Source of the DNA: Roseobacter fucihabitans
GTDB lineage: Bacteria > Pseudomonadota > Alphaproteobacteria > Rhodobacterales > Rhodobacteraceae
DNA: 64,000 nucleotides
Reading direction: 5' to 3'
NCBI RefSeq assembly: GCF_014337925.2
Contig: NZ_CP143423.1
Location: 2,262,501-2,326,500 of the forward strand
Positions 2,638 to 35,543 of this stretch are shown piece by piece. Below the pieces are notes generated by a model that saw only the letters and a list, made by a program, of their open reading frames with translations, ran no database searches and had not been told where the DNA came from. Made by a program: the position numbers and the translations under genes. Positions within the stretch are counted from its first letter, which is position 1. The number at the start of each line of letters is the position of its first letter.

Positions 2638-2954
2638 ATGACGAAACGAAAGAATTATTCGCCCGATTTCAAAGCTAAGGTTGCGCTTGAAGCAATTCGC
2701 GAGGAGATGACGTTGGCGGAGCTGTCCAAGAAATATGGCATTCACCCGACGCAGATTGGGACATGGAAATGCGCGGCGATAGAGAACCTGGCGACGGCCT
2801 TTACGCGCCGAGGGTCCGTCGCTGAGCAGGTGCAGCCCCAGAACAGGTGAGCATTGCGGACGTCGACAAGTTGCATTCTGTCAACCGGCAGGTGATTGCC
2901 TGCAATCACTGAGAGGGGAAGATCGGCCAGCTGGTGGTGGAGCGGGATTTTTTG
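2638..2954 (+). pseudogene. IS3-family transposase OrfA remnant
   Basis: The first 70 codons are intact and end QNR. They carry the OrfA helix-turn-helix start (SPDFKAKVALEAIREE, then HPTQIGTWK). A small frame change near 2848 follows. The reading then continues in another frame as IADVDKLH, is interrupted at 2877-2917 by a palindromic unit, and resumes as KIGQLVVERDFLA, the usual OrfA C-terminal coiled-coil end. A second unit begins right after this. The protein cannot be made in full. Family assignment is secure from these motifs. Confidence 0.8.
2877..2917 (-). repeat. palindromic unit E (about 41 bp), inserted in OrfA
   Basis: The unit splits an expected DKLH-AKIGQL reading between the His codon and the Lys codon. 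On the minus strand it reads CCCTCTCAGTGATTGC then AGGCAATCACC then TGCCGGTTGACAGA. It thus keeps the CCTCTC left arm, an ATTGC/GCAAT palindrome (2-base loop here) and a CTGCCGG right arm. Boundaries are inferred from the expected transposase protein and may be off by 1-3 bases. Confidence 0.65.
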
Positions 2955-2957
2955 GCC

Positions 2958-2999
2958 CCCTCCCGGCAGCATGCTGCGCATGCGCCTGTCGGGCAGTGG
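2958..2999 (+). repeat. palindromic unit F (about 42 bp), at OrfA/OrfB junction
   Basis: It follows the OrfA end FLA and precedes the OrfB region. It reads CCCTCCCGGCAG, then CATGCTGCGCATG, then CGCCTGTCGGGCAGTGG. The core CATGC-TGC-GCATG is a perfect palindrome around a 3-base loop, and the arms CCCGGCAG and CTGTCGGG are also nearly complementary, so the whole unit can fold into one long hairpin. The left boundary is the least certain of the seven because the natural junction sequence here is less conserved. Confidence 0.6.
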
Positions 3000-3161
3000 A
3001 TGCCTCGCATCAGTTGCTCGGGACGCGAGGCAAAAATGGTGAGTAAGGAGCACAAGCTGAGTGTACGCCGTCAATGCAAGCTGCTGACGCTGACCCGATC
3101 CCACTTGTACTATGAACCGAAGGGGGAGAGCGCTGAGAACCTACGGTTCATGGAAATCATT

Positions 3162-3202
3162 CACTGCCCGGCAGGGTTATGCGAAGCATGATCCCGAGAG
3201 GG
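3162..3202 (-). repeat. palindromic unit G (41 bp), inserted in OrfB
   Basis: It interrupts the expected reading MEII-DKQFLETPW exactly between ATT (Ile) and GAT (Asp). On the minus strand it reads CCCTCTCGGGATC, ATGCTTCGCAT, AACCC, TGCCGGGCAGTG. This is the cleanest copy: a GGG/CCC clamp, an ATGC-TTC-GCAT hairpin, and a second small palindrome CTGCC-G-GGCAG. Removing 41 bases restores the frame across the site. Confidence 0.75.
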
Positions 3203-3679
3203 GATAAGCAATTCCTCGAAACGCCATGGTAGGGGTCACGTCAAATGGCGCGGTGCATGCAACGCAACAACCACAAATGCGGTCGCCATTGCGTGCGCCC
3301 TCTCATGCGGCTCATGCGTTTGGTCCCGATCTATCAGGAACCCAACACGAGCAAGAAACATCCCCAGCATAAGATCTGGCCGTATTTGCTTAGGAAAGCC
3401 GTGATCGACCGCCCGAACCAGGTATGGTGTGCTGACATTACCTACATCCCGATGCGGCGTGGCTTTCTGTATCTGGTGGCAATCATGGATTGGTACAGTC
3501 GCAAAGCCCTTGCTTGGCGGTTGTCCAACAGCATGGACGCGGACTTCTGCGTTGAAGCCTTGAAAGAGGCACTGGCAAAGCACGGCAGGCCAGAGATATT
3601 TAATACGGACCAAGGCAGCCAATTTACCAGTGGTGCTTGGATCGACGTGCTCACGGATGCAAAGATCAAGATCAGCATG

Positions 3680-3718
3680 CCTCTCGTGACATTGCTACGC
3701 AATGCACTGACGGTAATA
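3680..3718 (+). repeat. palindromic unit A (39 bp), in-frame in OrfB
   Basis: It lies between the ATG (Met) of KISM and the GAT (Asp) of DGKAAWRDN. It reads CCTCTCGTGAC, ATTGCTACGCAAT, GCACTGACGGTAATA. The core ATTGC-TAC-GCAAT is a perfect palindrome. At 39 bp it is the only copy of a length divisible by three, and it contains no stop, adding 13 residues (PLVTLLRNALTVI). Confidence 0.75.
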
Positions 3719-4011
3719 GATGGCAAAGCTGCCTGGCGGGACAATCGCATGATTGAAAGGCTTTGGCGATCACTGAAATACGAATGCGTCTACCTGAACG
3801 CCTTTGAGGCGGGTTCAGAAATGCGGGCGGGGATCAGCAAATGGCTGACCTATTACAACTCTGAGCGCCCACATTCGACCCGCGGCATATTGACCCCCAA
3901 TGAGGCCTATGTCAGCAAAACAGAACCAATGAGATTGGCAGCCTAAATGAAACCCTGATCCATCTTAACAAGGCTGCAAACTGGTCGGAAAAGTAAGACC
4001 AACTCTTAACG

Positions 4012-4701
4012 ATGCCTGATGCATCGGCCATCGACAAATTGCCTTACCGCGTGGGGATTGATCAGGTTGCGACTCTTCGGGCTTTTGGTCGGGCGTATTG
4101 CGTTGAACTGCTGTTTGCTGTTGAGCAATCCGACACAAGAGGCGCGTGAAAAGCTTGCTCAGGTGCTGCAACAGCAAGCCAAGACTCTGCGCAGCACACT
4201 GGACGTGCTAAATGGCAAGGACACTCTGACCAATCTACCCGAGGAACTGAGCGCCTGGCTGGCGCAAATCGGCAAGACGCAGGACACCCATATTCGGGTG
4301 ATCACCAGGATGGCAGAACAGACCGACATCTTGATTGAGGCCGTCCAGAGCGAAGATGATTCGGCCCAAAGACTGCTGCAAACCTATATTGCGTTTGGCC
4401 AGGGCGCGTTTTTTGCAGCGGTCACGACCCTGACGGATCACATCTGGGTTCAGATCGAAACCGGTCGCAGCATGCAGCTAGAGATTGCGATGAAATCCGC
4501 GACCCGTCCGGGCGAAGGGTTAACCGCCTTGATCGGATCAGGAAATACGTCCGCTCGATGTCGATAAACGCCTCCATGGAGGCCTCCCGCGCGGGCGAGG
4601 CCGGCAAAGGACTTGCGATTATCGCGCAGGAATTCAAAACACTGGCCGAAGAAGTACAACAACTGACCTCCTCGGCCCGCGAGGACATTCAAAACATCTA
4701 A
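4012..4701 (+). pseudogene. soluble methyl-accepting-chemotaxis-like protein, frameshifted
   Basis: Joined across two frame changes, the reading is about 229 residues: it starts MPDASAIDKLPYRVGI at 4012, changes frame near 4130 (VEQSD to TQEAREK), and changes again near 4515-4530. It ends with a chemoreceptor signalling-tip sequence, SINASMEASRAGEAGKGLA followed by EFKTLAEEVQQL. There are no membrane segments. The layout and length match the intact protein at 39670-40356, so the two are probably paralogues. The IS3 remnant ends about 15 bases before the start codon and may have removed the promoter. The frameshifts argue for a pseudogene; a sequencing error is the alternative. Confidence 0.65.
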
Positions 4702-4886
4702 GCGTCAAGATAGTAGAAAACCAAGTGAATCGCGGAGATATTTTCCATATATTTTACTACACACCCCTGTGACGCAAGTTAATGACAAAAAAAATCACCC
4801 CTGCGACATTTATTTCTCTTTCTTGCTGCTTGACGCCACCTTGCCAGACACATAATGTCTCGCGAGCACAAGGGAGCCTTTTGGTA
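4702..4886 (+). promoter_or_regulatory. probable promoter region of the ilv operon
   Basis: An AT-rich stretch (ATATTTTCCATATATTTTAC near 4738) ahead of the leader peptide, with no gene of its own. The promoter of the acetolactate synthase operon should lie here. No specific operator is recognised. Confidence 0.4.
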
Positions 4887-4934
4887 ATGACACCAGTTGT
4901 CGTCATTCTAGGAAACACGCGCATGGGCCGGTAA
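4887..4934 (+). CDS. ilv operon leader peptide
   Basis: A 15-codon ORF too short for usual gene finding: MTPVVVILGNTRMGR then stop. It has a run of regulatory branched-chain codons (Val-Val-Val-Ile-Leu), an AAGGGAG ribosome site upstream, and a strong terminator starting 26 bases after its stop. This is the classical design of attenuation by Val/Ile/Leu-tRNA supply: stalling in the run of branched-chain codons would prevent terminator formation and allow transcription into the acetolactate synthase genes. Confidence 0.8.
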   Translation: MTPVVVILGNTRMGR

Positions 4935-4987
4935 CGGTAGACCATAGTCTGACCCATGCGCCCCCGCCAGAACGGGGGCTTTTTTTT
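4921..4987 (+). terminator. transcription attenuator of the ilv operon
   Basis: The terminator stem is GCCCCC (4960-4965) with GGGGGC (4974-4979) and eight T residues (4980-4987), sitting 50 bases before the acetolactate synthase start. A competing helix is visible: GCATGGG at 4921-4927, inside the end of the leader peptide, can pair with CCCATGC at 4953-4959, directly before the terminator stem. Ribosome position on the leader should decide between structures. Confidence 0.8.
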
Positions 4988-5037
4988 GCGCAAACGCTGG
5001 CACTGGCCCCACGCGGCCCGACACGGAGAAGAACGAT

Positions 5038-6789
5038 ATGAAACGGCAAATGTCCGGAGCAAAAATGATTGTCCAAGCCTTGATTGATCAAGGCGTGGAT
5101 ACCGTCTTTGGGTATCCCGGAGGGGCCGTGCTACCGATTTACGACGAAATCTTTCAGCAAAATGCCATTCGCCACATTCTGGTGCGCCATGAACAGGGTG
5201 CTGTGCATGCGGCTGAGGGCTATGCGCGCGCGACCGGCAAGCCCGGCGTTGTCTTGGTAACATCCGGCCCCGGTGCCACAAATGCGGTGACCGGCTTGAC
5301 CGATGCGCTGATGGATTCGATCCCGATTGTTGTTTTGACCGGACAGGTGCCGACCTTCATGATCGGCTCGGACGCGTTTCAGGAAGCCGATACCGTCGGC
5401 ATCACGCGCCCCTGCACCAAACACAACTGGCTGATCAAGGAAACCGACGCCCTGCCCGGTGTGCTGCATGAGGCGTTCCATGTCGCCACCCAAGGCCGCC
5501 CCGGACCGGTGCTCGTGGACATTCCCAAGGACGTGCAATTTGCCACCGGCACCTATGTCGGCCCAAAGCCATCGGTGTCTCATTACCAGCCCAAGGTCAA
5601 AGGGGATATGGAGGAGATCGTCGAATTGGTCGCCGCCATGGAAAAGGCAAAGCGGCCGATCTTTTACACTGGCGGCGGCGTCATCAATTCCGGCTCTGCG
5701 GCCAGCCAGCTGTTGCGCGAATTGGTCAAGGCCACCGGCTTTCCGATCACTTCGACGCTCATGGGGCTTGGCTCCTATCCGGCTTCGGGTGAAAACTGGT
5801 TGGGCATGCTCGGGATGCACGGGCTTTATCAGGCCAATATGGCGATGCATGATTGCGATCTGATGATCAATATCGGCGCGCGGTTTGACGACCGCATCAC
5901 CGGACGTATTGACGCCTTCAGTCCGAAATCGACCAAAGCCCACATCGATATTGATCCCTCCTCAATCAACAAGGTGATCAAGGCCGATATTCCGATAGTC
6001 GGTGATGTCGGGCGTGTGCTTGAGGATATCCTTAAGGTGTGGAAGTCACGCGGGCGCAAGACCAACTCCGAAGGATTGGCCAAATGGTGGCGCCAGATCG
6101 AGGAATGGAAGGCCATTGATTGCCTGAAATTCACCCAGACCGGCAAGATCATCAAACCACAATATGCTCTGGCGCGTCTTGAAGAATTGACCAAGAAGCA
6201 TGACCGTTACATCTGTACCGAAGTCGGCCAGCATCAAATGTGGGCGGCGCAGTACCTTGGGTTCGAGGGCCCAAATCGTTGGATGACATCGGGGGGCTTG
6301 GGCACCATGGGGTATGGGTTTCCTGCCTCAATCGGCGTGCAGATGGCACACCCTGACGCTCTCGTGATCAACGTGGCGGGTGAGGCAAGCTGGCTGATGA
6401 ATATGCAGGAAATGGGCACGGCCGTGCAATATAACCTGCCCGTCAAGCAATTCATCCTGAACAACGAACGCCTCGGCATGGTACGTCAGTGGCAGGAATT
6501 GCTGCACGGTGAGCGCTATTCGCAAAGCTGGTCCGAAGCCCTGCCCGATTTCGTGAAACTGGCCGAAGCCTTTGGGGCCAAGGGTATCCTGTGTTCGGAT
6601 CCCGATACGCTGGATGATGCGATCATGGAGATGATCACGCATGACGGGCCGGTGATCTTTGACTGTCTGGTGGCCAAGCATGAGAACTGCTTCCCGATGA
6701 TCCCATCGGGCAAGGCGCATAATGAAATGCTGCTGGGTGAAGCGGATACGCAGGGCGTGATCGACAGCAAGGGGAGTGTGTTGGTGTGA
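5038..6789 (+). CDS. ilvB: acetolactate synthase, large (catalytic) subunit
   Basis: 583 residues, the normal length for this ThDP- and FAD-dependent enzyme, which condenses pyruvate to acetolactate (or with 2-oxobutyrate to acetohydroxybutyrate) in Val/Leu/Ile synthesis. Visible are [14 protein letters not shown], the ThDP-activating Glu52 ([16 protein letters not shown]), the [10 protein letters not shown] loop and the C-terminal ThDP/Mg site. That last motif reads GEAS (448-451) followed by NN at 475-476; many homologues have GDGS or GDAS, so Glu replaces the usual Asp. The symbol ilvI would serve equally well. Transcription is probably attenuated by the upstream leader. A small unrelated ORF separates it from its regulatory subunit gene. 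Confidence 0.95.
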
Positions 6790-6790
6790 C

Positions 6791-7183
6791 ATGGAACAAG
6801 GTGTAGAATCAATCATCGCCTTAGCTCTATTCGCTATCATAGCTTTGGCTGCGTGGGGTTACCAGAACGCGAGACTGCAAAATGCAGAAGACTTCTCAGT
6901 TGTTTATACCAACCAACTGCCAGGTATGATTGCACTATCGTCAGGACCTGTGCACTGTATTCTCATCCGGCAATCCGGCAATCTATATAGAGATTTAGGT
7001 GCATTTGACGGCTGGAGTTCTGCACTCGTCGAGGTATCAAAGTCATTCAACCGTGCAAAAATTGACAGCGTTATGGTCCGCCAGAATAACGAAGACACCT
7101 TCGATGTTTTGCGTACTTTCCACAGCCACGGTGGCAAAGCCGAAGGAAAGAAACTCGGTGGCGCTGTGATAAGGCGTTTATAA
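6791..7183 (+). CDS. small single-span membrane protein of unknown function
   Basis: About 130 residues from ATG 6791 (a GTG at 6776 would overlap ilvB but has no usable ribosome site). One hydrophobic helix (IIALALFAIIALAAWGYQ, about residues 7-24) is followed by a soluble domain with no motif I recognise. Codon use is clearly more AT-rich than in both ilv neighbours, as if the gene had been inserted between the two acetolactate synthase subunits. It is co-directional, with 1 base after the ilvB stop and 11 bases before ilvH, so it should be co-transcribed. No function is assigned. Confidence 0.65.
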   Translation: MEQGVESIIALALFAIIALAAWGYQNARLQNAEDFSVVYTNQLPGMIALSSGPVHCILIRQSGNLYRDLGAFDGWSSALVEVSKSFNRAKIDSVMVRQNNEDTFDVLRTFHSHGGKAEGKKLGGAVIRRL

Positions 7184-7194
7184 AAGGAAGTCAT

Positions 7195-7755
7195 ATGTCC
7201 CCCCTAAAAATCAAAAAAGGCGCGACCAGCCATTCCGCCTATAACCTAAGACCAACGTTTTCGGATGTGATCGAACGCCATACGCTTGCCGTTCTTGTTG
7301 AAAACGAACCGGGCGTGCTGGCGCGGGTCATCGGGCTCTTTGCCGGGCGCGGGTATAACATCGACAGCCTGACGGTGGCGGAGGTCGATCACACCGGTCA
7401 TCTGAGCCGGATTACCATCGTCACATCCGGCACGCCGCAAGTGATTGAGCAGATCAAAGCGCAGTTGGGCCGTATCGTGACCGTGCATGCCGTGCATGAT
7501 CTGACCGTTGAGGGCGCGTCGGTTGAACGTGAATTGGCGATGTTCAAGGTGGTCGGCACGGGCGATAAACGTGTTGAAGCCCTGCGCCTGGCGGATATTT
7601 TCCGCGCCAGTGTCGTGGATAGCACTCTGGAAAGTTTCGTGTTCGAGATTACCGGCGCGCCTGACAAAATCGACGCTTTCGCGGATCTTATGCGCCCGCT
7701 TGGGCTGACAGATGTCGCCCGTACCGGCGTCGCTGCGCTGTCGCGTGGTGAATAA
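7195..7755 (+). CDS. ilvH: acetolactate synthase, small (regulatory) subunit
   Basis: 186 residues. The N-terminal ACT domain (about 28-100) reads HTLAVLVENEPGVLARVIGLFAGRGYNIDSL, where end-product valine binds in homologues, followed by the C-terminal activation domain (ELAMFKVV, LRLADIFRA). The N terminus is about 20 residues longer than in enterobacterial proteins. The start is supported by AAAAGGAAG 6 bases upstream. It partners the catalytic subunit at 5038, from which it is separated by an extra ORF. Confidence 0.95.
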   Translation: MSPLKIKKGATSHSAYNLRPTFSDVIERHTLAVLVENEPGVLARVIGLFAGRGYNIDSLTVAEVDHTGHLSRITIVTSGTPQVIEQIKAQLGRIVTVHAVHDLTVEGASVERELAMFKVVGTGDKRVEALRLADIFRASVVDSTLESFVFEITGAPDKIDAFADLMRPLGLTDVARTGVAALSRGE

Positions 7756-7758
7756 CGC

Positions 7759-8106
7759 TCAGGCTTTCGACGCGATCTGAATGTCGTCACGCGCTTTATC
7801 ATCGACACGTGCCCTAAAGGGAATAATCTGAGCGGTCCGGGTCGGTGCATCCACGTAGTGTGCCTGCTCGCGCAGCGCTTCAGGCAGACCCGCGCCCGCG
7901 CGCTCGACAACCAGGCGGGGATTGCGCGCGCGGCGCATGGTTTGATGAATCTCCATCTCGAACTGCACAACATCGCCGGCATCAAAGAATGCATCTGCGG
8001 CAAAGATGTCATCCTTGGAGGTCAGAAAAGCCAGATCGCCCTGATCCTCGCACCAGATGACCGCTTTGCGATCCGACACGTCACTCCACAAAACAACCCC
8101 TATCAT
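7759..8106 (-). CDS. conserved hypothetical protein
   Basis: About 115 residues from ATG 8106; GGAAG sits five bases before it, whereas the longer reading begins with TTG and swallows that ribosome site. It starts MIGVVLWSDVSDRKAVIWCEDQG and is rich in acidic residues, with no membrane span. I recognise no domain. It is convergent with ilvH, whose stop is 3 bases away from its own. Confidence 0.6.
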   Translation of the reverse strand: MIGVVLWSDVSDRKAVIWCEDQGDLAFLTSKDDIFAADAFFDAGDVVQFEMEIHQTMRRARNPRLVVERAGAGLPEALREQAHYVDAPTRTAQIIPFRARVDDKARDDIQIASKA

Positions 8107-8372
8107 CACTTCTTCCAATCTTCTGCTCTGCTTTTTCTATTTGGATTAAGTCGACCCTCCCAACATGAGTACCAACAAGTTAACTAACGAACACGTGACA
8201 AAAACGGGACCGAGCGCTTGGAATTTGTGGCATTCTGCCGTAAGCCTGACACAAATACGATCTATCAGTGACTCTACTTGGCGTCAGTTTGACCCGATGA
8301 AATCAAATCTATTGGCTAAAACGCGCCATACGACGTAGTATGGTGCTGTTGCGACCAGACAAAGGAACGATC

Positions 8373-9170
8373 ATGCCTTTGAACGCCCGTACCCCAGCGG
8401 AGCTGCGCAATATGTTTGGTGCGAATCTGCATCGTCTATGCGCCAAATACCCGTCGATTTCGGCGCTCTCCAGGGATCTGGGGATCAACAGAACTCAATT
8501 CAATCGGTATCTGAACGGCGAGAGCTTTCCACGCCCGGACGTCTTGGCGCGGATCTGTGATTTCTTTTCTGTCGATGCGCGTATCCTGCTCGAACCGATT
8601 GATCAAGTTGCGCGCGACTTTAGTCCGGCCTCAAATGAATACCTGCGCGAGTTTACCGGACCGATGACGCAAACGATCCCGGAAGACAGCCTGCCAAGCG
8701 GGTTTTACCAGTTCACGCGGCGCAGTTTCATGAAAGACGATCTATACGTGCGCGGCATCATACAGATCAAACGACAAGGCGAGCACACCTTCCTGCGTGG
8801 ATTTGAGCCGAAAAACGCAATGGCCATGCAAGGCATTCCCGCGGCACCGAAATCGCGCGAATATCGCGGTTTTATCACGGCCATCGAGGACGGGGTCGTC
8901 GCCACCGTCAGCCGCCGCAATGGTATGTCCATTTCGTTCAATTATCTGAGCCGCGTGACCTCTTTTCAAAACAACTTCTGGGCCGGGTTCTGTGCGCGCC
9001 CCGTGAGAGAGAATGCCTCTACCAATCGCATGGCGCGTTTGGTATTTGAATTGCTTGGCACAAATCCGAAAAACGCTTTGGGGCCTGCACGCCAAGCTGG
9101 GTTTTGCGCTTTGGATGATCTGATGCCTTTTCACCAGACATTGCTGCAACCGCATGAACCTTTTCGCTGA
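8373..9170 (+). CDS. XRE-type helix-turn-helix transcription regulator
   Basis: 265 residues from ATG 8373, which follows AAAGGAACG; an upstream GTG reading is less likely. An N-terminal HTH (about residues 8-65) reads LRNMFGANLHRLC, SISALSRDLGINRTQFNRYLNGESFPRPDVLARIC. The remaining 200 residues form an uncharacterised, possibly ligand-sensing domain. It precedes a Rieske oxygenase by about 100 bases and may regulate it, which is inferred from position only. Confidence 0.75.
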   Translation: MPLNARTPAELRNMFGANLHRLCAKYPSISALSRDLGINRTQFNRYLNGESFPRPDVLARICDFFSVDARILLEPIDQVARDFSPASNEYLREFTGPMTQTIPEDSLPSGFYQFTRRSFMKDDLYVRGIIQIKRQGEHTFLRGFEPKNAMAMQGIPAAPKSREYRGFITAIEDGVVATVSRRNGMSISFNYLSRVTSFQNNFWAGFCARPVRENASTNRMARLVFELLGTNPKNALGPARQAGFCALDDLMPFHQTLLQPHEPFR

Positions 9171-9277
9171 CCTGTCCCGCAGGACAGCGATGTCGCCTTG
9201 AGAAAACTCCCGTCGTTTTGAGAACTGCAAGGAGCCGCGACCGGCCTATGCTCTTGCCATGATGCAGGAGAGTTGTA

Positions 9278-10438
9278 ATGCCTCAGACCCCAACCGATCT
9301 GTCCCAAGTTCGCCGCCCCATTGCAGTGGCAAATGGTCTGCCAAACGCCCATTATATCGACCCCGAAATCTATGCCGAAGAAAAAAACGCTTTGTTGGTG
9401 GACGGCTGGGCCGGGCTGGCCGTCGCGGCGGATGCTGCGGAAATCGGCGATGCCATGCCGCTGGAATTCCTTGGGATGCCGTTGCTGCTTGTCAGGGATC
9501 GCGCCAACCGGTTGCGCGTTTTTCAGAACATCTGTCGCCATCGCGGTATGATACTGGTGTCAGAACCGCGCCGGATCGAGGGGGCCATCCGCTGCCCCTA
9601 TCACAGTTGGTGCTATTCCACAGAGGGCAAACTGGTGAGCACCCCGCATGTGGGGGGGCCGGGACAGAACAAACATGACGGTATTGATCGCGCGCTTTTG
9701 GGACTTCTCGAGGTGCGCTCCCACATCTGGATGGGGGTCATATGGGTCAATCTTTCCAGCACAGCCCCGAGCTTTGACGTCGCGCATGCCGAACTCCTCG
9801 AACGCTGGGCAGAATTTGACAAACCGTTGTTTCATGGCGGTGCCGAGAGCCAATTCAAGCTGGATGTGAACTGCAATTGGAAACTGGCGGTGGAAAATTA
9901 TTGCGAAAGCTACCACTTGCCTTGGATACATCCGGGCTTGAACAGCTACTCCAGGTTGGAAGATCATTACCACATCGAAAGCCCCGGATTATTTTCAGGA
10001 CAAGGCACGTTGGTCTATCGCCAAATCACGGGCGATGACGGGTCTGTTTTTCCGGATTTTGACGGATTGAGCGTAAAATGGGATACTGCCGCAGAGTATA
10101 TTACGGGTTTTCCCAATGTGTTGCTGGGCGTGCACCGCGATCACACCTTCGCGATCATCCTGGAGCCGCAAGGGCCTGAAAAAACCCGCGAACATGTCCA
10201 TATTTTCTATACCACACCCGATACGGACCCCGTCCTGCGTGAAAAGAACGCAAAGCTTTGGAAAGATGTTTTTCTCGAGGATATTTTTGTCGTCGAAGGC
10301 ATGCAGCGCGGACGCCATGCCCATTCATTTGACGGTGGACGATTTTCGCCGGCCATGGACGGGCCGACGCATCTCTTTCACGACTGGGTGGCCGGGCGGG
10401 TCGATGCCCATCGCCACGCGGCGGATGCGGCGGAATGA
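9278..10438 (+). CDS. Rieske non-haem iron oxygenase, alpha subunit
   Basis: 386 residues. The Rieske cluster ligands are Cys86 and His88 (CRHRG), then Cys106 and His109 (CPYHSW), with the standard spacing. The catalytic iron site shows His213 and His218 in ENYCESYHLPWIH. The overall architecture matches choline-, carnitine- or stachydrine-type monooxygenases as well as ring hydroxylases, so the substrate is not assigned. A reductase is not adjacent. AGGAGAG precedes the ATG. The stop overlaps the next small gene by 4 bases. Confidence 0.85.
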   Translation: MPQTPTDLSQVRRPIAVANGLPNAHYIDPEIYAEEKNALLVDGWAGLAVAADAAEIGDAMPLEFLGMPLLLVRDRANRLRVFQNICRHRGMILVSEPRRIEGAIRCPYHSWCYSTEGKLVSTPHVGGPGQNKHDGIDRALLGLLEVRSHIWMGVIWVNLSSTAPSFDVAHAELLERWAEFDKPLFHGGAESQFKLDVNCNWKLAVENYCESYHLPWIHPGLNSYSRLEDHYHIESPGLFSGQGTLVYRQITGDDGSVFPDFDGLSVKWDTAAEYITGFPNVLLGVHRDHTFAIILEPQGPEKTREHVHIFYTTPDTDPVLREKNAKLWKDVFLEDIFVVEGMQRGRHAHSFDGGRFSPAMDGPTHLFHDWVAGRVDAHRHAADAAE

Positions 10439-27938: not shown

Positions 27939-27948
27939 AAAGCAGCGG

Positions 27949-28025
27949 TGGCGCGGTTGACGGGGCTCGAACCCGCGACCCCCGGCGTGACAGGCCGGTA
28001 CTCTAACCATCTGAGCTACAACCGC
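27949..28025 (-). tRNA. tRNA-Asp (anticodon GUC)
   Basis: 77 bases including an encoded CCA. The acceptor stem GCGGTTG pairs with CAACCGC and the discriminator is G. The anticodon stem CCGGC/GCCGG holds the loop CTGTCAC, anticodon GTC. The T arm shows GGTTCGAGCC. G34 of this tRNA is the substrate for queuosine insertion by Tgt (gene at 40454) and for glutamylation by GluQ (gene at 62359), both present in the window. Confidence 0.97.
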
Positions 28026-28167
28026 CCGCAGCTTACCGAGCAAGCCCGGTGTGCTTGGACGTCTTATGGCGCGTCTGGGGTCCCGTCAAGCAGGTAGCGC
28101 CTCTTGATGTGGTTTTTTTTCGCTCAGGCCAAAAGGCGACCCCACAGCTGCGCGGTCTGCGACCCCG

Positions 28168-28887
28168 TCATTGGTCTTTGATCGCCAGATCATCCCGTAT
28201 TTGGCGCGCCATAACCTCGCCCCAGCGCGCATAAAGCGCAGGCCCAGGATGGAAGCCGTCCCGCGCCATCATCTCCGGGTCCAACTGAAAACCCGGATCC
28301 ACAAGCCTGCATGCCTCTTGTGTTTTCAGCTCCTCATCCAAAGCGCTCCGCATCGCCTCGGCATGCGCGCCCAAGACGCCAGACAGAGGAAACGGGAGCG
28401 CCGGGAATCGTCCCATGGGCGGCACCGATGTGACAAAGATATGTTCTATTCCATAGTCGCGCCGCAGCATTTGGTGAAAGGCGCGCGTTTGCGCCACCCA
28501 TTTGTCAGGATTTACCAAACGCGTCACGTCATTGACGCCAAGTGCCGTGACAGCAACGTCAAAATCTCCCTGACAGGAGCGGCGCAGATGCTCGGGCATG
28601 GCGCGCGTGGTCATACCCGTCATGGCCACCAGGTGCCAGTCGACGGTACAATGCCTGGACAAAGGCGCGATCAATTGCCCGCTCAGTGCCTCTGACTGAT
28701 CCCGTACTCCGACACCGGCCGCCGATGAATCCCCGACAATCAACAGCCGCAAAACCGGACCGCAACCGACGCGCCCGCACCTTACGCCGCCCGCCTCGGG
28801 CAATTTTGGCGTGCGCGCGATCACCATAAGCGCCTGGAGCGCGAGAACGGGAGAGAGACCCACCTGAAGCAGGCGTGCCGCTAACAT
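28168..28887 (-). CDS. SGNH/GDSL-family hydrolase
   Basis: 239 residues from ATG 28887; longer readings upstream exist but have poor codon character. Block I is LLIVGDSSAAGVG (catalytic Ser), block III is ALGVNDVTR (oxyanion Asn), and block V is DGFHPG (catalytic Asp and His). A hydrophobic N-terminal segment (LLQVGLSPVLALQALMVI) may be a membrane anchor or signal. It is an esterase or lipase-like enzyme of unknown substrate. Confidence 0.78.
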   Translation of the reverse strand: MLAARLLQVGLSPVLALQALMVIARTPKLPEAGGVRCGRVGCGPVLRLLIVGDSSAAGVGVRDQSEALSGQLIAPLSRHCTVDWHLVAMTGMTTRAMPEHLRRSCQGDFDVAVTALGVNDVTRLVNPDKWVAQTRAFHQMLRRDYGIEHIFVTSVPPMGRFPALPFPLSGVLGAHAEAMRSALDEELKTQEACRLVDPGFQLDPEMMARDGFHPGPALYARWGEVMARQIRDDLAIKDQ

Positions 28888-29210
28888 CCCCGATGCCTTT
28901 GTATCGGCGACCCGCGGCCCCCCGATAGCGTGCCCCCACCTCCTCCTTCTGATTGGCGCGACCGAGATGTGGCCTTGCAAAATAGCGCGCTCATGCCTCT
29001 CATCCTTTCCTGTTGTCCTGCACGTCTCAGCGTATGGCCAAGAATGCACCATCCGTTTCAACCCGCAGCATGGATGCCTGTCTCCCTCAACACCAGCGTG
29101 TAAAAAGCACATCCGGTCCCCATCGCCAATGGGTCGAGAGACAGCGATGATGGATTGAGCCCGTGATGATCCCCGCCTAGGGTGAGTGTTGAAATGCGAG
29201 GAGCGAGAAA

Positions 29211-29771
29211 ATGCGAAAGATTCAGGCCCAGGGCATCCATCACATTACCTTGACCGGCGCTGATCGCCAGACCTCCATTGATTTCTGGGAGGGGCTCCTT
29301 GGTTTTTCACTGATTTTCGATCAGCCCAATCTAGACGACCACAGGCAGGGGCATCTCTATTTTGCAGCAGGTAACGGTCAAACAATCACAGTATTTACAG
29401 ATGAAAATCGCAAACTCACACCCGAACGTCTGAAAGATCAGGTCGGTGCTGTTCACCATCTGGCGTTTTCAGTGTCGCGTTCGGTGTTGACGCAGGTTTG
29501 CGAGCGATTGGATGAGCGGCACATCAAGCATACGGGTCTCAAGGATCGCGGCTTTATGAACAGCATCTATTTTCACGATCCTCTGGGCCTGCGAATCGAA
29601 TTGGCCTGCTATCGTTTTGAGCCGCCCGAGGGTGCGACCCACGCGGATGTGCTGGCCCAGGCCCATTCCTTGCGTGTGCAAAGAGAGGATTTGGCCATTG
29701 CCGATTGTCATATTGCCGATGCAATCGAAATTTTGACGCAGCAGCGCCAGCCGCGCATGATCGACGTCTGA
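29211..29771 (+). CDS. VOC-superfamily (glyoxalase/dioxygenase-fold) protein
   Basis: 186 residues. The VOC pattern starts at GIHHITLTGADRQTSIDFWEGLLGFSL, with a metal-ligand-like His in IHHITL and a second set in AVHHLAFSV and a terminal Glu in PLGLRIELACY. A tail of about 50 residues (HADVLAQAHSLRVQRE and so on) follows the domain. It resembles extradiol-dioxygenase or glyoxalase-like proteins of unknown substrate. GAGGAGCGAG precedes the ATG. Confidence 0.82.
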   Translation: MRKIQAQGIHHITLTGADRQTSIDFWEGLLGFSLIFDQPNLDDHRQGHLYFAAGNGQTITVFTDENRKLTPERLKDQVGAVHHLAFSVSRSVLTQVCERLDERHIKHTGLKDRGFMNSIYFHDPLGLRIELACYRFEPPEGATHADVLAQAHSLRVQREDLAIADCHIADAIEILTQQRQPRMIDV

Positions 29772-29868
29772 AAACACCGGATGCGGTGTCAGAGTAATTT
29801 TGGCACCGACGATGCCCTATCGACCGATCACTCACAGAAGCTCCGGTTTTCCCAACCGCATCGTGGCA

Positions 29869-30144
29869 TCAGGTCCGTTGCAAATCCTCGCTAACTTTCG
29901 TTTGCGCGCGATCAGGTTCCATACGCCGCGACGCCAGATCAAGCCGGGCCGCGATATGAATGAACTCAGAAACATCGCCCGCAGGTTGCACCAACGCCAT
30001 TTCATAAGCCGCATATTCCAGTAATTTTGCCGCCGCCTGCATCGCCGCCTTTACACGTGCCCGGCTTTGCAAAGCATCAAGCGTCTCAAAAGCAGACGAA
30101 AGGTCAACACCCGTCAAAAGATCATCACCCGCTGGCACGGTCAT
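29869..30144 (-). CDS. small conserved hypothetical protein
   Basis: 91 residues from ATG 30144, preceded by AGGAAACGG. Mostly helical (LSSAFETLDALQSRARVKAAMQAAAKLLEYAAYEMALV). No motif is recognised. A longer upstream reading lacks a good start. Confidence 0.5.
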   Translation of the reverse strand: MTVPAGDDLLTGVDLSSAFETLDALQSRARVKAAMQAAAKLLEYAAYEMALVQPAGDVSEFIHIAARLDLASRRMEPDRAQTKVSEDLQRT

Positions 30145-30554
30145 ATCATGTCCGTTTCCTGCAACTCTCAAAACCCTACCCGACCAGAGACAATTGCGAT
30201 GTGATACCACCGCAGATATCCCGATTTCGCGCGGGACCTGCAACGCACCCTAGTGTCGCGTCGCATGATCCTTGTATTCTTACGCTGTTTCTTTTGACTG
30301 GCTTGGCATCACTCTTTCTGGACACCAATCTATTTGTCAACCCAAGGTAGATCAATTTTACCCTGAAAACACGCATAGATTATCAAATACAACGTCCGTT
30401 GTGCCCAATATGACAAAAAAATTACAGCTGCTCGGGCAAGGTCATCATGGATACATATTCGCCATTAGCCGGAATACGCCAAATACGGTTTGGCGACTTT
30501 CCTCGTCAGCGGCAATACATCCCGCTTAGCACTTTCATCTAAATACAGACTAAA
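30145..30554. other. non-coding stretch before tRNA-Val
   Basis: About 410 bases, AT-rich after 30290, with no convincing gene, repeat or structured RNA. Short ORFs here have unlikely composition and no ribosome sites. Confidence 0.5.
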
Positions 30555-30630
<76 letters not shown>

Positions 30631-30665
30631 GTTAAGCGGCGGTTTAGCCAAACTCGCGCGCGGCT

Positions 30666-31244
30666 TCAAGCCCCTATCGACAGGCATTTCATTTCTCCAT
30701 ACGCAAGGTGATAAACCACACCCTGCCCACCTGGCAGCGCACCCATCTGCGAGATGTCCATATTCAACAAAATCAAACGCAACATGCGCGATGTCATGCC
30801 GTGCGTCACGAGTACCGCCGGCCCGGATAGATCATCCAGAAAGGCAAGGCAGCGCCGATGCAGCCCCTTGAAACCTTCCCCCCCCGGCGCGCGCTCATAA
30901 AGGTCAAGGCCGCTTTCTTCGCTTTCATCCATTTTGTGACCGGGCAATAACGCATCCCGGCGCAACCCCTCAAACGCGCCGACGGATATTTCCGACAGGC
31001 GCGCATCCGTCTGAATTGTTTGAAACAATCCTTCCAGCGCCAGCGAAGCCGTATGAAAAGCACGACCCTGCGGACTGCAAAACGCTTGAAAATCGCGCAG
31101 ATCGCAGCCACCGAGAATTTTGCGCTGATCGCGTGCCTGCGCGCGGCCCTGCGCGGTCAGTGCAGAATCGAGCCTGCCCTGGATACGGTGTTCGGCATTC
31201 CAAACCGTTTGCCCATGGCGCAGAATATAGAGCGGCGGCCTCAT
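30666..31244 (-). CDS. histidine phosphatase (phosphoglycerate mutase-like)
   Basis: 192 residues. The phosphohistidine motif LYILRHGQTVWNAEHR (RHG near 8-10) comes first, then a second His in VLVTHGMTSRMLR. GRLDSALTAQGRAQA is typical of the PhoE/CobC-like branch. It could be a cofactor-dependent mutase, a broad phosphatase or an alpha-ribazole phosphatase. No cobalamin gene is adjacent, so phosphatase is the safer label. Confidence 0.85.
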   Translation of the reverse strand: MRPPLYILRHGQTVWNAEHRIQGRLDSALTAQGRAQARDQRKILGGCDLRDFQAFCSPQGRAFHTASLALEGLFQTIQTDARLSEISVGAFEGLRRDALLPGHKMDESEESGLDLYERAPGGEGFKGLHRRCLAFLDDLSGPAVLVTHGMTSRMLRLILLNMDISQMGALPGGQGVVYHLAYGEMKCLSIGA

Positions 31245-31478
31245 TTCTTCGTCTCCCAGCAGGCGGATAACTTAAGTTCCAAAGTGTCGATGGCACGGTC
31301 CCGGCCCGCAGCGCAATATCAATCTGGCCGACGACCCCATCCGCCACAGAGAAATTAATGTTGCTTTACCAACTGTTAGCCTGTCACAGCGGTTTGGCAG
31401 TACCATTTTGCGATTTCCACACTACCTAAAAGCAAAATAGATATGCGCGAGATTGGTACCACCCAACAGGAGAATGTG

Positions 31479-31940
31479 ATGGCTATTACCCTGAAACTGA
31501 ATGGCGAAATCCAAACGCTGGACGCTGACCCCGGCACCCCCTTGCTTTGGGTGATCCGCGATGATCTGAAACTGACCGGTACAAAATTTGGCTGTGGCGT
31601 CGCGGCCTGCGGTGCCTGCACGGTGCATGTCGATGGCGTGCCGGTGCGGTCCTGCCAAACCTATGTTGAAGACGTCGAGGGCTCCGAGATAACAACCATC
31701 GAGGGGTTGAATTCGGACATCGGGCGCGCGGTTCAAACGGCATGGGCGGAACTTGACGTCGTGCAATGCGGTTATTGCCAGTCCGGGCAGATCATGTCCG
31801 CCGTCGGCCTGCTCAGCGAAAACGCCAAACCCTCTGGCACGGATATCGATGATTACATGAACGGCAATGCCTGCCGCTGCGCCACTTACCAACGCATCCG
31901 CGCCGCGATTTTGCGCGCCGCAGACCTGATGGAGGCCTGA
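31479..31940 (+). CDS. molybdenum hydroxylase, 2Fe-2S subunit (IorA-like)
   Basis: 153 residues from ATG 31479, with CAGGAG just upstream; an in-frame earlier ATG lacks one. The N-terminal plant-type 2Fe-2S domain shows KFGCGVAACGACTVH and a further Cys in VRSC. The C-terminal helical 2Fe-2S domain shows QCGYCQSGQ and NACRCATYQR. It carries electrons from the molybdenum site of the downstream partner. The pair is like isoquinoline 1-oxidoreductase or periplasmic aldehyde oxidases; a FAD subunit is absent. Confidence 0.92.
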   Translation: MAITLKLNGEIQTLDADPGTPLLWVIRDDLKLTGTKFGCGVAACGACTVHVDGVPVRSCQTYVEDVEGSEITTIEGLNSDIGRAVQTAWAELDVVQCGYCQSGQIMSAVGLLSENAKPSGTDIDDYMNGNACRCATYQRIRAAILRAADLMEA

Positions 31941-31943
31941 ACC

Positions 31944-34121
31944 ATGACACTCACAACATCCCGACGTGGTTTTCTTGCAACCGCCGCCGCCGCAACCGGC
32001 GTGCTGGCAATCGGAATATCGCCGCGCGGTGCGCTAGCCAAGGCGGGCGACGGTGCGCTGAACCCCTTTGTGACAATCGCGCCGGATGGCACGGTCACCG
32101 CCATCATCAAACATTTCGAAAAAGGCCAAGGCACCGCGACCGGGCTGTCCACCTTGATCGCCGAAGAGTTGAACATGTCGCTTGATGCGATCAAATTCGA
32201 ATTCGCGCCCTCCGATCCAGCGGTCTACAACAACAGCCTGTTCGGACCGTATCAGGGGACTGGCGGATCAACCGCCATGGCGAATTCATATCTGCAATAC
32301 CGAACGGCCGGGGCTGCGGCGCGCGAGATGCTGCTGACGGCGGCAGCACAGCGTTGGGGTGTTGCCAAAAGCGCCCTCTCTCTAAAAGACGGGACGATCT
32401 CAGGGCCGGATCAAAGCGGCGACATTGGTGAATTCGTCGCAGATGCCAGCCTGCTGGATGTTCCGGCAGACCCCGCGCTCAAGGACCCCGCGCAATTCCG
32501 AATCATCGGCAACCCGGACGTGCACCGAAACGATCAAAACTCCAAGATCGACGGCACGGCGCAATATGCGATGGACCTTCATCTGGAAAACCAGATGGTT
32601 GTGGTTATCAAACGCAGTCCACGCATGGGGGGAAGCGTCGCGTCCTTTGACGAGAGCGGCGCGCAGGGCATAAAGGGCTTCATTCAGGCGCTTGCGCTGC
32701 CCAATGGTGCCGGTGTTGCGGTCTATGCCGACAAGACATGGGCCGCGCTTCAGGCTCGCGAAGCGGTCCGTGTGACTTGGGATTTCACCGCCGCCGAAAC
32801 GCGCGGGTCGGATGAAATTCGTCGTGAACTGCTGGCCTCATTGGACGGCGATGCAGAATTCGACGCCTCCTCAGAAAGTGACTTGTCCGATACGCTCGCC
32901 GCCATTGAAGGGGCCGCGCAGGTGGTGGAGGAAACCTTCTATTTCCCCCTGTTGGCCCATGCTCCGATGGAGCCGCTGACGGCTACAATCGAACCCCTGG
33001 CTGACGGCGCGGTCGTCATCCATGACGGCGCGCAGTTTCCCACCAGCAACCACAATGTCTTGTCACAAATCCTTGAATTGCCCATGGAGAAGGTCAAGGT
33101 CAACACCATGATCGCCGGCGGCTCTTTTGGCCGTCGCGCCACGCCAAGCGCGGATTATCAGGTCGAAGTGGCGCTGGCCTTTGCCATGACGGACCGCACC
33201 CGCCCGGTGAAGCTCGTCTGGTCGCGTGAAGATGACATCACCGGTGGATATTACCGCCCCGCCTTCGCCCATAAGGTGCGCGTCGGGTTGGATGACAGCG
33301 GCAAAATCGTGGGCTGGGATCACCGCATCGCCGGGCAGTCGATTTTCAAAGGCACCTTCTTTGAAAGCGTCATGGTGCATGGCGGGATTGATCACGCGTC
33401 GGTCGAGGGCGCCGCCGATACGCCTTACGATATTCCCGGCATGCATTTTGGGCTAACGGATAACAAACCAGCGACAACGCTGCTTTGGTGGCGCTCAGTC
33501 GGCCATACCCACACGGCCTATGTCATGGAGAGCATGATGGACATTGCCGCCAAAGCGGCCGGAAAGGACGCCGTTGATTTCCGTCTGGAATACCTCTCGG
33601 GCGGAACGCCGGATCAACAACGCCTTGCTGGTGTGCTTGAACTGGTCGCTCAAAAAGCCGGTTGGGGCAACGTCGCAAAGGGGCGAAGCCAAGGTGTTGC
33701 GGTGCATAAGTCCTTTGGCTCTTATGTCGCGCAGGTGGCTGAAATCTCACGCGATGAAAACGGGGCTGTCAAAATCGAGAAGTTTACTGCCGCCGTTGAT
33801 TGCGGTCTCCCGGTCAATCCAAATGTGATCAAGGCGCAGATCGAAGGGGGAATCGGCTATGGAATCGGTGCGATCATGCGCAACGAGATCACGCTGACGG
33901 GCGGGGAGACGGACCAATTCAATTTTCCCGATTACGAACCGCTGCGCATGCGCGACATTGGCGCAATCGATACACATATCATCGCATCCAGTGAAGCGCC
34001 GACAGGGATTGGTGAGCCCGGCACACCGCCCGCCGGTCCCGCATTGGCAAATGCGATCGCTGTGGACGGTCCGCGCATCACATCCCTGCCCATGCAGAAC
34101 GAAGGCATCAATTTCGCCTGA
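31944..34121 (+). CDS. molybdenum hydroxylase, large Mo-cofactor subunit (IorB-like)
   Basis: 725 residues. It starts with a Tat signal (TTSRRGFLATAAAATG, cleavage after GALA), so the mature enzyme is periplasmic. Two xanthine-dehydrogenase-type Mo-cofactor halves are present, with GQGTATGLSTLIAEE, GGSFGRRATPSADYQ, TLLWWRSVGHTHTAYVME and the catalytic Glu region GIGEPGTPPAGPAL. It starts 3 bases after the 2Fe-2S gene. Electrons probably pass to a cytochrome, since there is no flavin subunit. The substrate (an aldehyde or N-heterocycle) is undetermined. Confidence 0.92.
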   Translation: MTLTTSRRGFLATAAAATGVLAIGISPRGALAKAGDGALNPFVTIAPDGTVTAIIKHFEKGQGTATGLSTLIAEELNMSLDAIKFEFAPSDPAVYNNSLFGPYQGTGGSTAMANSYLQYRTAGAAAREMLLTAAAQRWGVAKSALSLKDGTISGPDQSGDIGEFVADASLLDVPADPALKDPAQFRIIGNPDVHRNDQNSKIDGTAQYAMDLHLENQMVVVIKRSPRMGGSVASFDESGAQGIKGFIQALALPNGAGVAVYADKTWAALQAREAVRVTWDFTAAETRGSDEIRRELLASLDGDAEFDASSESDLSDTLAAIEGAAQVVEETFYFPLLAHAPMEPLTATIEPLADGAVVIHDGAQFPTSNHNVLSQILELPMEKVKVNTMIAGGSFGRRATPSADYQVEVALAFAMTDRTRPVKLVWSREDDITGGYYRPAFAHKVRVGLDDSGKIVGWDHRIAGQSIFKGTFFESVMVHGGIDHASVEGAADTPYDIPGMHFGLTDNKPATTLLWWRSVGHTHTAYVMESMMDIAAKAAGKDAVDFRLEYLSGGTPDQQRLAGVLELVAQKAGWGNVAKGRSQGVAVHKSFGSYVAQVAEISRDENGAVKIEKFTAAVDCGLPVNPNVIKAQIEGGIGYGIGAIMRNEITLTGGETDQFNFPDYEPLRMRDIGAIDTHIIASSEAPTGIGEPGTPPAGPALANAIAVDGPRITSLPMQNEGINFA

Positions 34122-34123
34122 GG

Positions 34124-34176
34124 GCATGTGAGAAAGGAAGCGCCCGCCTGAACAATCAGGGGGGCGTTTCACATGC
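34124..34176 (+). terminator. long terminator hairpin after the Mo-hydroxylase operon
   Basis: The inner stem GCGCCC-g-CCTG pairs with CAGG-g-GGGCGT around AACAAT. Outer arms GCATGTGA.GAAA and TTTCACATGC extend it to about 50 bases. A T-rich stretch (AATTTTTT) follows within 7 bases. Confidence 0.75.
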
Positions 34177-34246
34177 AGCTAATTTTTTGCAAAAGACTCC
34201 AGCGTTACGCATCTTGTTCATGCACCAGCGCACATTCGTATCGCCA

Positions 34247-34540
34247 TCAGGATGTTGGCGAATGCTGTCCAGAGCGATCAAGATCTTCGATATCACAGAC
34301 CGTCTGATCCAGTTTCGCCGACAACAGGGCCAAAACGGGATGGGCGCTATCCCCTTGGTTTTTCTGAACGACGGCGATATATCCTCTCAATTCGCGCAGG
34401 ACGGATTGAGTTTCTTCAACGACTTCCCTGCTGATTTTATCCAACTTACGCTCCCGTATTCTTGGCTCTCTTAATGGAATATTATGTGCCACTAGCACTC
34501 TTTTTAGCAGTGATTTTCTACAAAGGGAACGAGATGACAC
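34247..34540 (-). pseudogene. possible fragment of a small helical protein
   Basis: A 97-codon reading with a coherent helical C-terminal part (SREVVEETQSVLRELRGYI, then PVLALLSAKLDQTVCDIEDL). The first 30 residues look unnatural, and the upstream end runs towards the IS630 remnant, so the original N terminus may have been lost. I cannot assign a family. It may be only a chance ORF. Confidence 0.3.
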
Positions 34541-35114
34541 CGCAATGTCGAAACGTTTTTAACCATTTAGAGAGGTCCGCGTTTAATCTGAATTGATTTG
34601 TGTTTCCCAAAGGAGTCTTTGTCTGCTTCATTTTCAGTGTGGAGGTGGATGATGGGCAAACCTCTTTCTTTAGATCTTCGGCACCGGATTTGCGGGTATG
34701 TTGCTGCTGGGATCTTTTGTCGTGCAGCAGGGCGTATTTTTGGTGTCAGTGCGGCAACGGGGGTGCGTTATGCTGCGGACAAACGAGAGCGGCGCGACGT
34801 CACGCCCAGACCACAGGGCAGGCCGGTGGGCCGATTTGGCCAGCTGGCACCGTATAAGGATTTCTTAATCGGGGTTATCCGTGCCGAACCAGACATAACA
34901 TTGCATGAACTATCCGGCGCGCTGGAAGACACGTCTGGCGTATCTGTTCACCTCTCATCAATTCACCGCGCCTTGGTACGCGCCGGGTTCTTATATGAAA
35001 AAAGGACTTATCGCACGGGAACGTAATCGGCCTGCCCTGCGCAGGGCAAGGCGGGGGTGGATCAACCACCGCCAGCCGCGCATGCGCCAGGAGCCACACA
35101 GACTGGTCTTTATT

Positions 35115-35155
35115 GCTTCTGGGGACATTGCTGCGCAATACCCTGACGGCCAGTG
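35115..35155 (+). repeat. palindromic unit B (41 bp), before first catalytic Asp
   Basis: Inserted between ATT (Ile of LVFI) and GAT of the expected DETAVKTN, where the first DDE aspartate lies. It reads GCTTCTGGGGAC, ATTGCTGCGCAAT, ACCCTGACGGCCAGTG. The core ATTGC-TGC-GCAAT is perfect, flanked by a GGG/CCC clamp. Confidence 0.78.
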
Positions 35156-35362
35156 GATGAGACAGCCGTAAAAACCAATGTCACGCGGCTGTGCGGACGG
35201 GCACCTATAGGCGAGCGCCTCCTTGGCACCGCGCCCTTTGGAAAACGGGGTACGCAGACTTTCATCGCCGGGCTGCGCTGATCGCGCCGTGGGTGATCAC
35301 GGGTGCACTGGACGGGCGCGCCTTCGACACCTGCGTTGGAACCCGGAACGGTAGCCATTCTC

Positions 35363-35402
35363 TCCTCTCCTTAATTGCTTTGCAATCAACTGCCGGGCAA
35401 GG
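35363..35402 (+). repeat. palindromic unit D (40 bp), before second catalytic Asp
   Basis: Inserted after CTC (Leu of GTVAIL) and before GGC-AAT-CTT, where relatives read GAC-AAT-CTT (DNLSTHK). It reads TCCTCTCCTTA, ATTGCTTTGCAAT, CAACTGCCGGGCAAGG. The core ATTGC-TTT-GCAAT is perfect and the right arm CTGCCGGGCA resembles units F and G. The following codon gives Gly instead of Asp, either by mutation or through imprecise insertion. Confidence 0.7.
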
Positions 35403-35502
35403 GGCAATCTTTCCACCCACAAAAGCCCCCGCGCAGCGCAGGCGTTAAGAAAGCGCGTGCTGGTTCCTGTTCTTGCCGCCCTACTCCCGCGACCTCAACC
35501 CC

Positions 35503-35543
35503 ACCTCTCGGGACATTGCTGCACAATACCCTGACGGCCAATG
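35503..35543 (+). repeat. palindromic unit C (41 bp), before catalytic Glu
   Basis: Inserted between CCC (Pro of RDLNP) and ATC-GAG (Ile-Glu of IEMAF). It reads ACCTCTCGGGAC, ATTGCTGCACAAT, ACCCTGACGGCCAATG, and from the second base on it matches unit B closely. The repeat shares 26 of 28 bases with unit B in the central GGGACATT to GACGGCCA part. Confidence 0.78.

Follow-up and report, generated by a model that had tools for sequence, protein, structure and literature searches.

Transposase genes of the marine alphaproteobacterium Roseobacter fucihabitans are interrupted by short, gene-less DNA hairpins of about 40 nucleotides (nt), each bounded by two near-constant tags. We consider it very probable that these units are a real and mobile family that dwells in insertion sequences (ISs). 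The stretch from which they were described (hereafter the window) comprises the 64,000 nt at C1:2262501-2326500 of the 4.85 Mb genome, which is held in six contigs. An earlier reading of the letters of this stretch (the sequence-only reading) had placed seven palindromic units on an IS3-family and an IS630-family remnant, and a covariance model trained on 36 non-redundant copies from the genome, with copies of window units among them, finds exactly these seven at the same positions (E value up to 1; nothing else matched). Both orientations occur, as had been said, with two of the seven on the minus strand. The view that the units are confined to two dead transposases holds within the window but fails genome-wide, where many IS families are occupied.

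Structure and copy number of the unit

Each unit consists of a 5' tag CCCTCTC, a hairpin and a 3' tag TGCCGGGCARTG, and is mostly 36-41 nt long; aligned in one orientation, the seven window units read CCCCTCTC - hairpin - TGCCGGGCARTGGATG with some divergence. In the common class the hairpin stem measures about 9 bp and has an A bulged out after the third pair, and a second class has a shorter, bulge-free stem, for example GTGCATGTAAACATGCAC. Unit length, earlier described as constant, is roughly so, but inserts range from 36 to 45 nt over 79 sites in the genome (41 nt in 42 of them), and 70 of the 79 lengths are not divisible by three.

The tags are near-fixed, the stem sequence is free to vary and its pairing is maintained. 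Across 36 aligned copies, 93.8% of the cells of the 9-bp stem with its bulged A are paired, as against 77% in shuffled controls. Changes on both sides are found in seven of the nine stem pairs, a figure reached by 5 of 500 shuffles, and the 44 compensatory cells and the covariation score were matched by none of the 500; the number of pair types is unremarkable (229 of 500). Slid control structures gave far lower scores than the real stem. The tags are rich in information, the GATG stretch at the end is moderately so, and beyond these the content drops to approximately zero. At the 60 sites that share neither flank with another and score at least 19.5, there are 54 different hairpin sequences.

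The genome holds well over 100 units. The core pattern CATTGCNNNGCAATNCCCTG, allowing up to two mismatches, has 96 genome matches (47 forward, 49 reverse), among which a few two-mismatch matches are non-units, and its reversed control has none. A pattern made from the tags only, CCCTCTCN{12,30}TGCCGGGCA, likewise gives 96 exact matches and none in the control; the inserts listed for it are palindromic by eye and highly varied in sequence. Among the best 150 candidates scored, at least 148 match the covariance model at E up to 0.01. These model searches score the best candidates of each genome (150, 20 or 15), so that copy numbers, and genomes called unit-free, are bounds. A scanner returned 175 hits, against 8 in the reversed control at equal threshold. 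From the extracted stretches we counted 181 units at 79 sites after removing the low scorers C1:2290374, 3066191 and 3363260 by eye; four more lie outside those stretches (C1:7788, 953542, 1415606 and 1469000), two of them no more than 600 bp from rve matches first scored as unit-free. Thirteen of the 79 sites have one flank in common with another site, and the stricter rule leaves 60. The profile search of the genome and its relatives that the sequence-only reading had proposed was thus run, and where unrelated chance palindromes were looked for, one family with covarying stems was found instead. The 79 sites, and the many genera in which units occur, fit its suggestion that the units went in at several times or came from a mobile source. 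The zero counts of the reversed-pattern controls, with the covarying stems, rule out chance palindromes.

Empty sites and the insertion target

Units insert precisely and in either orientation, most often directly 5' of a GATG-like tetranucleotide. The four units of the window IS3 element are missing from the intact IS3 elements of Roseovarius sp. THAF9, Phaeobacter inhibens P88 and Falsihalocynthiibacter arcticus plasmids, which align through all insertion points, and the IS3 relatives of two further genomes likewise align across all four points without units. A second IS3 element in one relative genome is without the four and carries two units of its own elsewhere in the same gene. IS630 relatives also align through the insertion points without units (units 6 and 7 were misplaced in a MAFFT alignment with one relative, and a short-flank search with other relatives gave empty sites matching the corresponding sites of another copy), and alignments give clean insertions in two other IS3 types, an IS21 and an IS1182. 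Less clear are one IS3b site, which lies at a deletion, and one IS3c and one IS21 site, which were misaligned. Intact relatives carrying the segments as normal coding sequence would have spoken against the sequence-only reading; they were looked for, and the IS3 and IS630 relatives found are without them. The empty sites in intact relatives thereby rule out that the units are ordinary transposase coding sequence.

The comparison of empty and occupied sites was extended to the whole set by a search of the collected sequences, which gave an unoccupied counterpart for 40 of the 79 sites. At 32 of these 40 the 21-nt flanks are exactly one base apart, this base being left free in the search; at the remainder the distance is 0, 2 or 3. 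In the empty sites the four bases after the insertion point are G in 28, A in 27, T in 29 and G in 29 of the 40. Since GATG is present in the empty sequences, it belongs to the target and not to the element; read on the opposite strand, CATC lies directly 5' of the insertion. No target duplication was found around the insertion points of the aligned sites.

Relative to the transposase, 41 own-genome sites carry the unit on the same strand and 29 on the opposite strand (70 judged sites, p 0.19), and the figures for units of an all-species scan, described below, are 25 and 30 among the matches listed; no orientation bias is seen in either set. Both counts exclude units without an IS match within 100 bp (9 of 79 in the genome, 74 of 129 in the scan). 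The units mostly break the transposase reading frame. One rare in-frame case was noted at another locus, where a 505-aa IS1182-type frame (L019 1616-3130, minus strand) is open through two units.

Host genes

The hosts are mostly transposase genes, of the IS3, IS5, IS21, IS66, IS200, IS256, IS630, IS1182 and other types, amounting to at least eight IS families. Six-frame Pfam searches around own-genome units identified IS3, IS21, IS1182, IS256, IS66, IS5, IS200, IS110 (weakly) and integrase families; at loci missed by Pfam, IS66, IS1182 and a tyrosine recombinase were recognised by DNA similarity. These surveys covered 3, 9 and 9 regions of the genome, 12 of 29 loci plus 3 loci of other genera, and 12 of 72 unmatched units of the all-species scan; they report matching frames rather than loci, and a per-region tally is therefore unavailable. 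Matches to non-transposase families were Oxidored_FMN in the genome itself (may be a neighbour), DUF2169, RelE and Bac_DnaA, with DUF3768 and ParB_N, in other genera (may be neighbours), and SfsA, YscW and others in the unmatched all-species sample (may be neighbours).

A match to IS proteins from the annotated elements of other organisms lies within 100 bp of 62 of the 79 own-genome sites, and of 70 once nine Pfam-named own-genome pieces, two of them weak, are added to the protein set. An rve match lies within 600 bp of 101 of the 181 copies, and the DNA this close to an rve match covers 2.03% of the genome. Of the 75 rve matches, 40 have a unit within that distance (42 with the further tags-only units). 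By comparison, one IS type with an intact 328-aa frame is present in 19 genome copies, none with a unit within 600 bp. This seemingly active and unit-free type includes the window copy at about 53250-54520 (rve match 54033-54326), in line with the earlier remark that the intact IS3 element at 53.3 kb is free of units: the covariance model at E up to 1 has no match in the IS at about 53.2-54.5 kb. At IS200, the 3' region of tnpA is interrupted by a unit in three copies (L052, L117 and L118; one at C1:436960-437007), and a further copy, L049, provides the empty site.

The same picture is seen elsewhere. Of 81 units from other genera, 58 have a match to a limited collection of IS protein pieces no more than 150 bp away. 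The 81 are partly non-independent, with repeated IS copies and one region present twice (L169 and L174), and include a doubtful unit at L170 135; Pfam finds transposases at several of the remainder. Among the matches listed in the all-species scan, 57 of 129 units lie no more than 150 bp from an IS protein match, compared with 58 of 2420 control positions taken from these stretches, and the 12 sampled from the 72 unmatched units gave IS5, IS256, IS110, IS66, ISL3 and IS6-like domains and a few others.

Distribution across genomes

Exact relatives of the unit occur in many Rhodobacterales genera. A covariance match at E up to 1e-4 is present in at least 99 of 295 genomes of the family, and at E up to 1e-5 in at least 6 of 385 genomes of a sample of the class, the source genome being included in both; two of the latter lie outside the family. 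Units outside Rhodobacteraceae were probably carried there by transferred IS copies. In two genomes of other families of the class (G398 and G487; L169, L171 and L174) the units are in IS3-like elements. The all-species scan, with the pattern CCCTCTCGGN{17,23}CCTGCCGGGCARTG, returned at least 120 stretches, and those listed contain 129 units; the titles of 80 listed stretches are all, as we take them, those of Rhodobacterales organisms or an unclassified alphaproteobacterium. Units are present in 76 plasmid records, and none was found in the phage records searched. An exact unit was seen in three viral contigs (L311-L313).

Multiplication and recombination of occupied elements

IS copies already carrying units have multiplied. 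A copy at another locus, with differing flanks, agrees with the four-unit IS3 element of the window without a mismatch over 1434 bp; as the window element has other lesions, it was probably transposed by a helper transposase.

Units also act as junctions of deletions and chimeras. One IS3 copy begins at the left end of unit 2. In eleven IS630 copies a single unit has unit 5's left flank on one side and unit 7's right flank on the other, and six copies retain the segment that follows unit 5. In the IS3b type, several copies have a unit where approximately 100 bp between two former unit sites is gone. These arrangements mark the units as recombination junctions, and unit-unit recombination accounts for chimeric and internally deleted IS copies. 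The short IS630 derivatives left by the inter-unit deletion, at 11 places such as C1:667398 and 974739, resemble home-made miniature elements.

Mechanism and alternative explanations

Overall, the observations are best explained, in our judgement with good confidence, by a non-autonomous, structure-dependent family of mobile hairpins that accumulates in ISs. The mobile entity would be the gene-less element of about 40 nt with its fixed CCCTCTC tag, hairpin and fixed TGCCGGGCARTG tag. It would travel as a folded single strand, and selection on this would keep the stem paired. Recognition of both tags, the bulge and the GATG/CATC target would fall to a strand-transfer enzyme acting in trans, by analogy with the HUH-type transposases that recognise the ends of IS200/IS605. 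A bulge that marks the strand, constant tags, insertion without duplication and a short motif preferred on one side are features that work as in single-strand transposition of that kind. The enzyme would not have to be present in each genome, because ISs that carry units can also travel through other transposases and through transfer. The near-exclusive residence in transposase genes might reflect a preference for IS DNA, survival in dispensable DNA, or both. The single-strand, HUH-like route, taken by itself, seems to us less likely than not.

Several observations weigh against this explanation. No mobilising enzyme was found in surveys for Y1_Tnp and RVT_1 in 26 unit-bearing genomes and 18 without a detected unit: Y1_Tnp is present in 8 of the 26 and in 1 of the 18, RVT_1 in 9 and 7, respectively. 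An autonomous version, with units around an intact non-IS gene, was not recognised in 41 loci of other genomes, and no unit was observed in the act of moving. GATG is a preference, with 11 to 13 of the 40 empty sites deviating at each position. A C stands directly 5' of the insert in 21 of 32 occupied sites and at this position in 11 of 32 empty ones, a difference that a clean cut leaves unexplained; where an occupied site has another base there, it usually agrees with the empty site, and some of the insertion events may overwrite a single base. When the window units were folded as single-stranded DNA, four of the seven did no better than shuffled sequences (z above -0.4), so the structural case rests on covariation. 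As to hosts, three own-genome sites are without an assignment (C1:3840382, 3881515 and 3881776), and single units lie in DNA like tyrosine recombinases, in or beside a phage-type integrase gene (L105), and where IS-like DNA joins a DUF2169 gene (L087).

These single units would be expected if the hairpin entered GATG-like sites anywhere and persisted only in dispensable DNA, mostly degenerate ISs, an alternative to which we give real, if less than even, credence. The target motif is short and common, and the 19 intact 328-aa copies are unit-free while more than half of the 75 rve matches (40, or 42) have units, as such a survival filter would have it. It predicts intergenic units, however, and none of the 79 own-genome sites was shown to be plain intergenic DNA: beyond the 62 that match IS proteins, most of the other 17 are IS66, IS256, IS200, weak IS5 or IS110, or recombinase, and the host picture is similar in other genera. 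Hairpins between genes may also do harm, so that the scarcity of intergenic units is not decisive. The two accounts of IS residence make different demands: active targeting requires a feature common to unrelated IS families, whereas a survival filter requires that neutral DNA, intergenic or other, be nearly barred. A more radical form of targeting, in which a system in Rhodobacterales, encoded by host or plasmid, recognises many IS families and puts them out of action with an inserted cassette of structured DNA, seems to us rather improbable. Recognition would have to operate through a feature common to IS DNA or its intermediates, and the system, if real, would be a DNA-level counterpart of transposon silencing.

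Alternatives that name the enzyme fare less well. Movement of a REP-like or IS200/IS605-like element by a resident Y1 (HUH) transposase or a REP-associated tyrosine transposase (RAYT) would account for a hairpin with an extrahelical base, the lack of target duplication and a one-sided short motif (CATC on the 5' side of the other strand). The source genome has ten Y1_Tnp matches, and the domain is somewhat commoner where units are present. We nonetheless regard this as unlikely: 18 of the 26 unit-bearing genomes have no Y1_Tnp match, so a Y1 enzyme need not be resident; the unit by three Y1 genes is an insertion within tnpA and not an IS end; DNA around the other IS200 copies inspected is unlike the unit by eye; and a GTAG or CGTC tag is absent. 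Copying from RNA by a reverse transcriptase, a route suggested for yeast mitochondrial GC clusters, would fit the compensatory stems, the many sequence variants and the analogy to GC42 (PMC4478555), but RVT_1 is about as frequent without units (7 of 18) as with them (9 of 26) and there is no target duplication, which makes it improbable. If the units were transparent at the RNA level, through ribosome bypass of the byp kind or splicing, the transposases could still function, and the multiplication of IS copies with four or five units would follow directly. Against this stand the lack of orientation bias and the 70 of 79 lengths that are not multiples of three, and the loss of about 100 bp of transposase in IS3b and the lesions of the window IS3 make helper transposases the better account of multiplication; we consider transparency very improbable. 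That the units are chance palindromes or ordinary parts of transposase genes is almost certainly wrong in view of the empty reversed controls and the empty sites in intact relatives. The mobile hairpin family stays our preferred explanation, and its occupied and empty sites are ready material on how a gene-less 40-nt DNA moves. They also make it testable whether bacteria, or other mobile DNA, counter ISs by insertion.

Relation to known elements

The sequence-only reading recognised no named family, and our searches gave none either. At gathering level the window matches only two tRNAs in Rfam, and the piece L038 3600-4350, searched at E up to 1, has one match, far under its threshold; searches of the open-access literature found no paper with short unit strings or with a family in this situation. 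Short mobile palindromes are a known kind; what is new, as far as the literature searched goes, is this family with its tags and its choice of hosts. IS200/IS605 elements have a folded end with an extrahelical base, a one-sided short target and no target duplication. The unit also has a bulged base, a one-sided motif and no duplication in aligned sites, but GATG, at 27-29 of 40 per position, is a preference on one side and not a fixed tetranucleotide, and the unit is a single, gene-less hairpin of 36-45 nt in place of two subterminal hairpins around a Y1 gene. Miniature inverted-repeat elements of DDE transposons differ in that the unit's ends are unequal, without terminal inverted repeats, and there is no target duplication. 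Cyanobacterial small dispersed repeats are reportedly very small mobile repeats at specific targets (Elhai and others), apparently with other sequence and hosts.

REP and REPIN elements resemble the unit in being short imperfect palindromes in high copy number whose strand is marked by a constant tag beside the hairpin. REP tags are GTAG or CGTC (compare PMC3733652), whereas the unit has CCCTCTC...CARTG / TGCCGGGCARTG and neither of these at the foot of the palindrome; units are also intragenic in transposases rather than mainly extragenic, and a Y1 transposase is found in only 8 of the 26 unit-bearing genomes tested. Yeast mitochondrial GC42 clusters share with the unit a length of about 42 nt, a palindromic and multicopy nature, reported rapid change under a pairing constraint, and merging and shuffling; they are mostly intergenic with AG or ACT repeat flanks (PMC4478555), while the units sit in transposase genes, without duplication and without AG or ACT repeats at the aligned sites. 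The analogies drawn earlier, to Rickettsia palindromic elements and byp elements, fail on frame and orientation. Rickettsia palindromic elements are also palindromic inserts within genes, but they are reported to be in frame and in likely functional genes (PMC3733652), whereas the units lie in transposases whose frames are mostly broken (70 of 79 lengths); byp elements differ in that the units occur in both orientations relative to the gene.

The window units and their remnants

The family assignments of the two remnants were confirmed (Table 1). Frames of the first match Pfam rve, rve_3, HTH_21 and HTH_Tnp_1 (2600-3960 assigned to the IS3 family). The second, at 34.6-35.7 kb, has DNA similarity to annotated IS630 transposases, runs identical to other copies, and a weak Pfam match to HTH_Tnp_Tc3_2 under the family cut-off.

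Table 1. Remnants and units of the window (window positions), and own-genome sites outside the 62 with an IS protein match (genome positions). A slash marks the insertion point.
Feature	Position	Strand	Covariance-model match	Remarks
IS3-family remnant, four units	2572..4006	+		ends AGAG...CTCT; TAA on both sides by direct reading
Unit 1, 39-nt insert	2879..2917	-	2873-2918 (-)	missing from intact IS3 relatives here; lowest-scoring window match, E 0.03
Unit 2, 41-nt insert	2958..2998	+	2957-3004 (+)	target GGCC/GATG; empty site
Unit 3, 41-nt insert	3162..3202	-	3156-3203 (-)	target TTATC/AATGAT (unit orientation); empty site
Unit 4, 39-nt insert	3680..3718	+	3678-3724 (+)	target CATG/GATGGC; empty site
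IS630-family remnant, three units	34579..35694	+		extent is the longest run identical to another copy
Unit 5, 41-nt insert	35115..35155	+	35114-35161 (+)	TTTATT/GATGAGACAGCC; clean against Roseovarius IS630 element
Unit 6, ~40-nt insert	35363..35402	+	35362-35408 (+)	E 3e-4; corresponding site of another copy matches empty site, L189
Unit 7, 41-nt insert	35503..35543	+	35502-35549 (+)	corresponding site of another copy matches empty site, L190
IS66 sites	C1:11053, 2818368, four of L036			
IS256 site	1645892			
IS200 site	436969			
Recombinase site	3306864			
Weak IS110 and IS5 sites	C2:74235, 90060, 90284			
Sites only near an rve match	C1:4266851, C2:75008			

The IS3 remnant also has, at about 2808-2830, an extra 20 nt that are not unit-like and are missing from six aligned relatives of other genomes.

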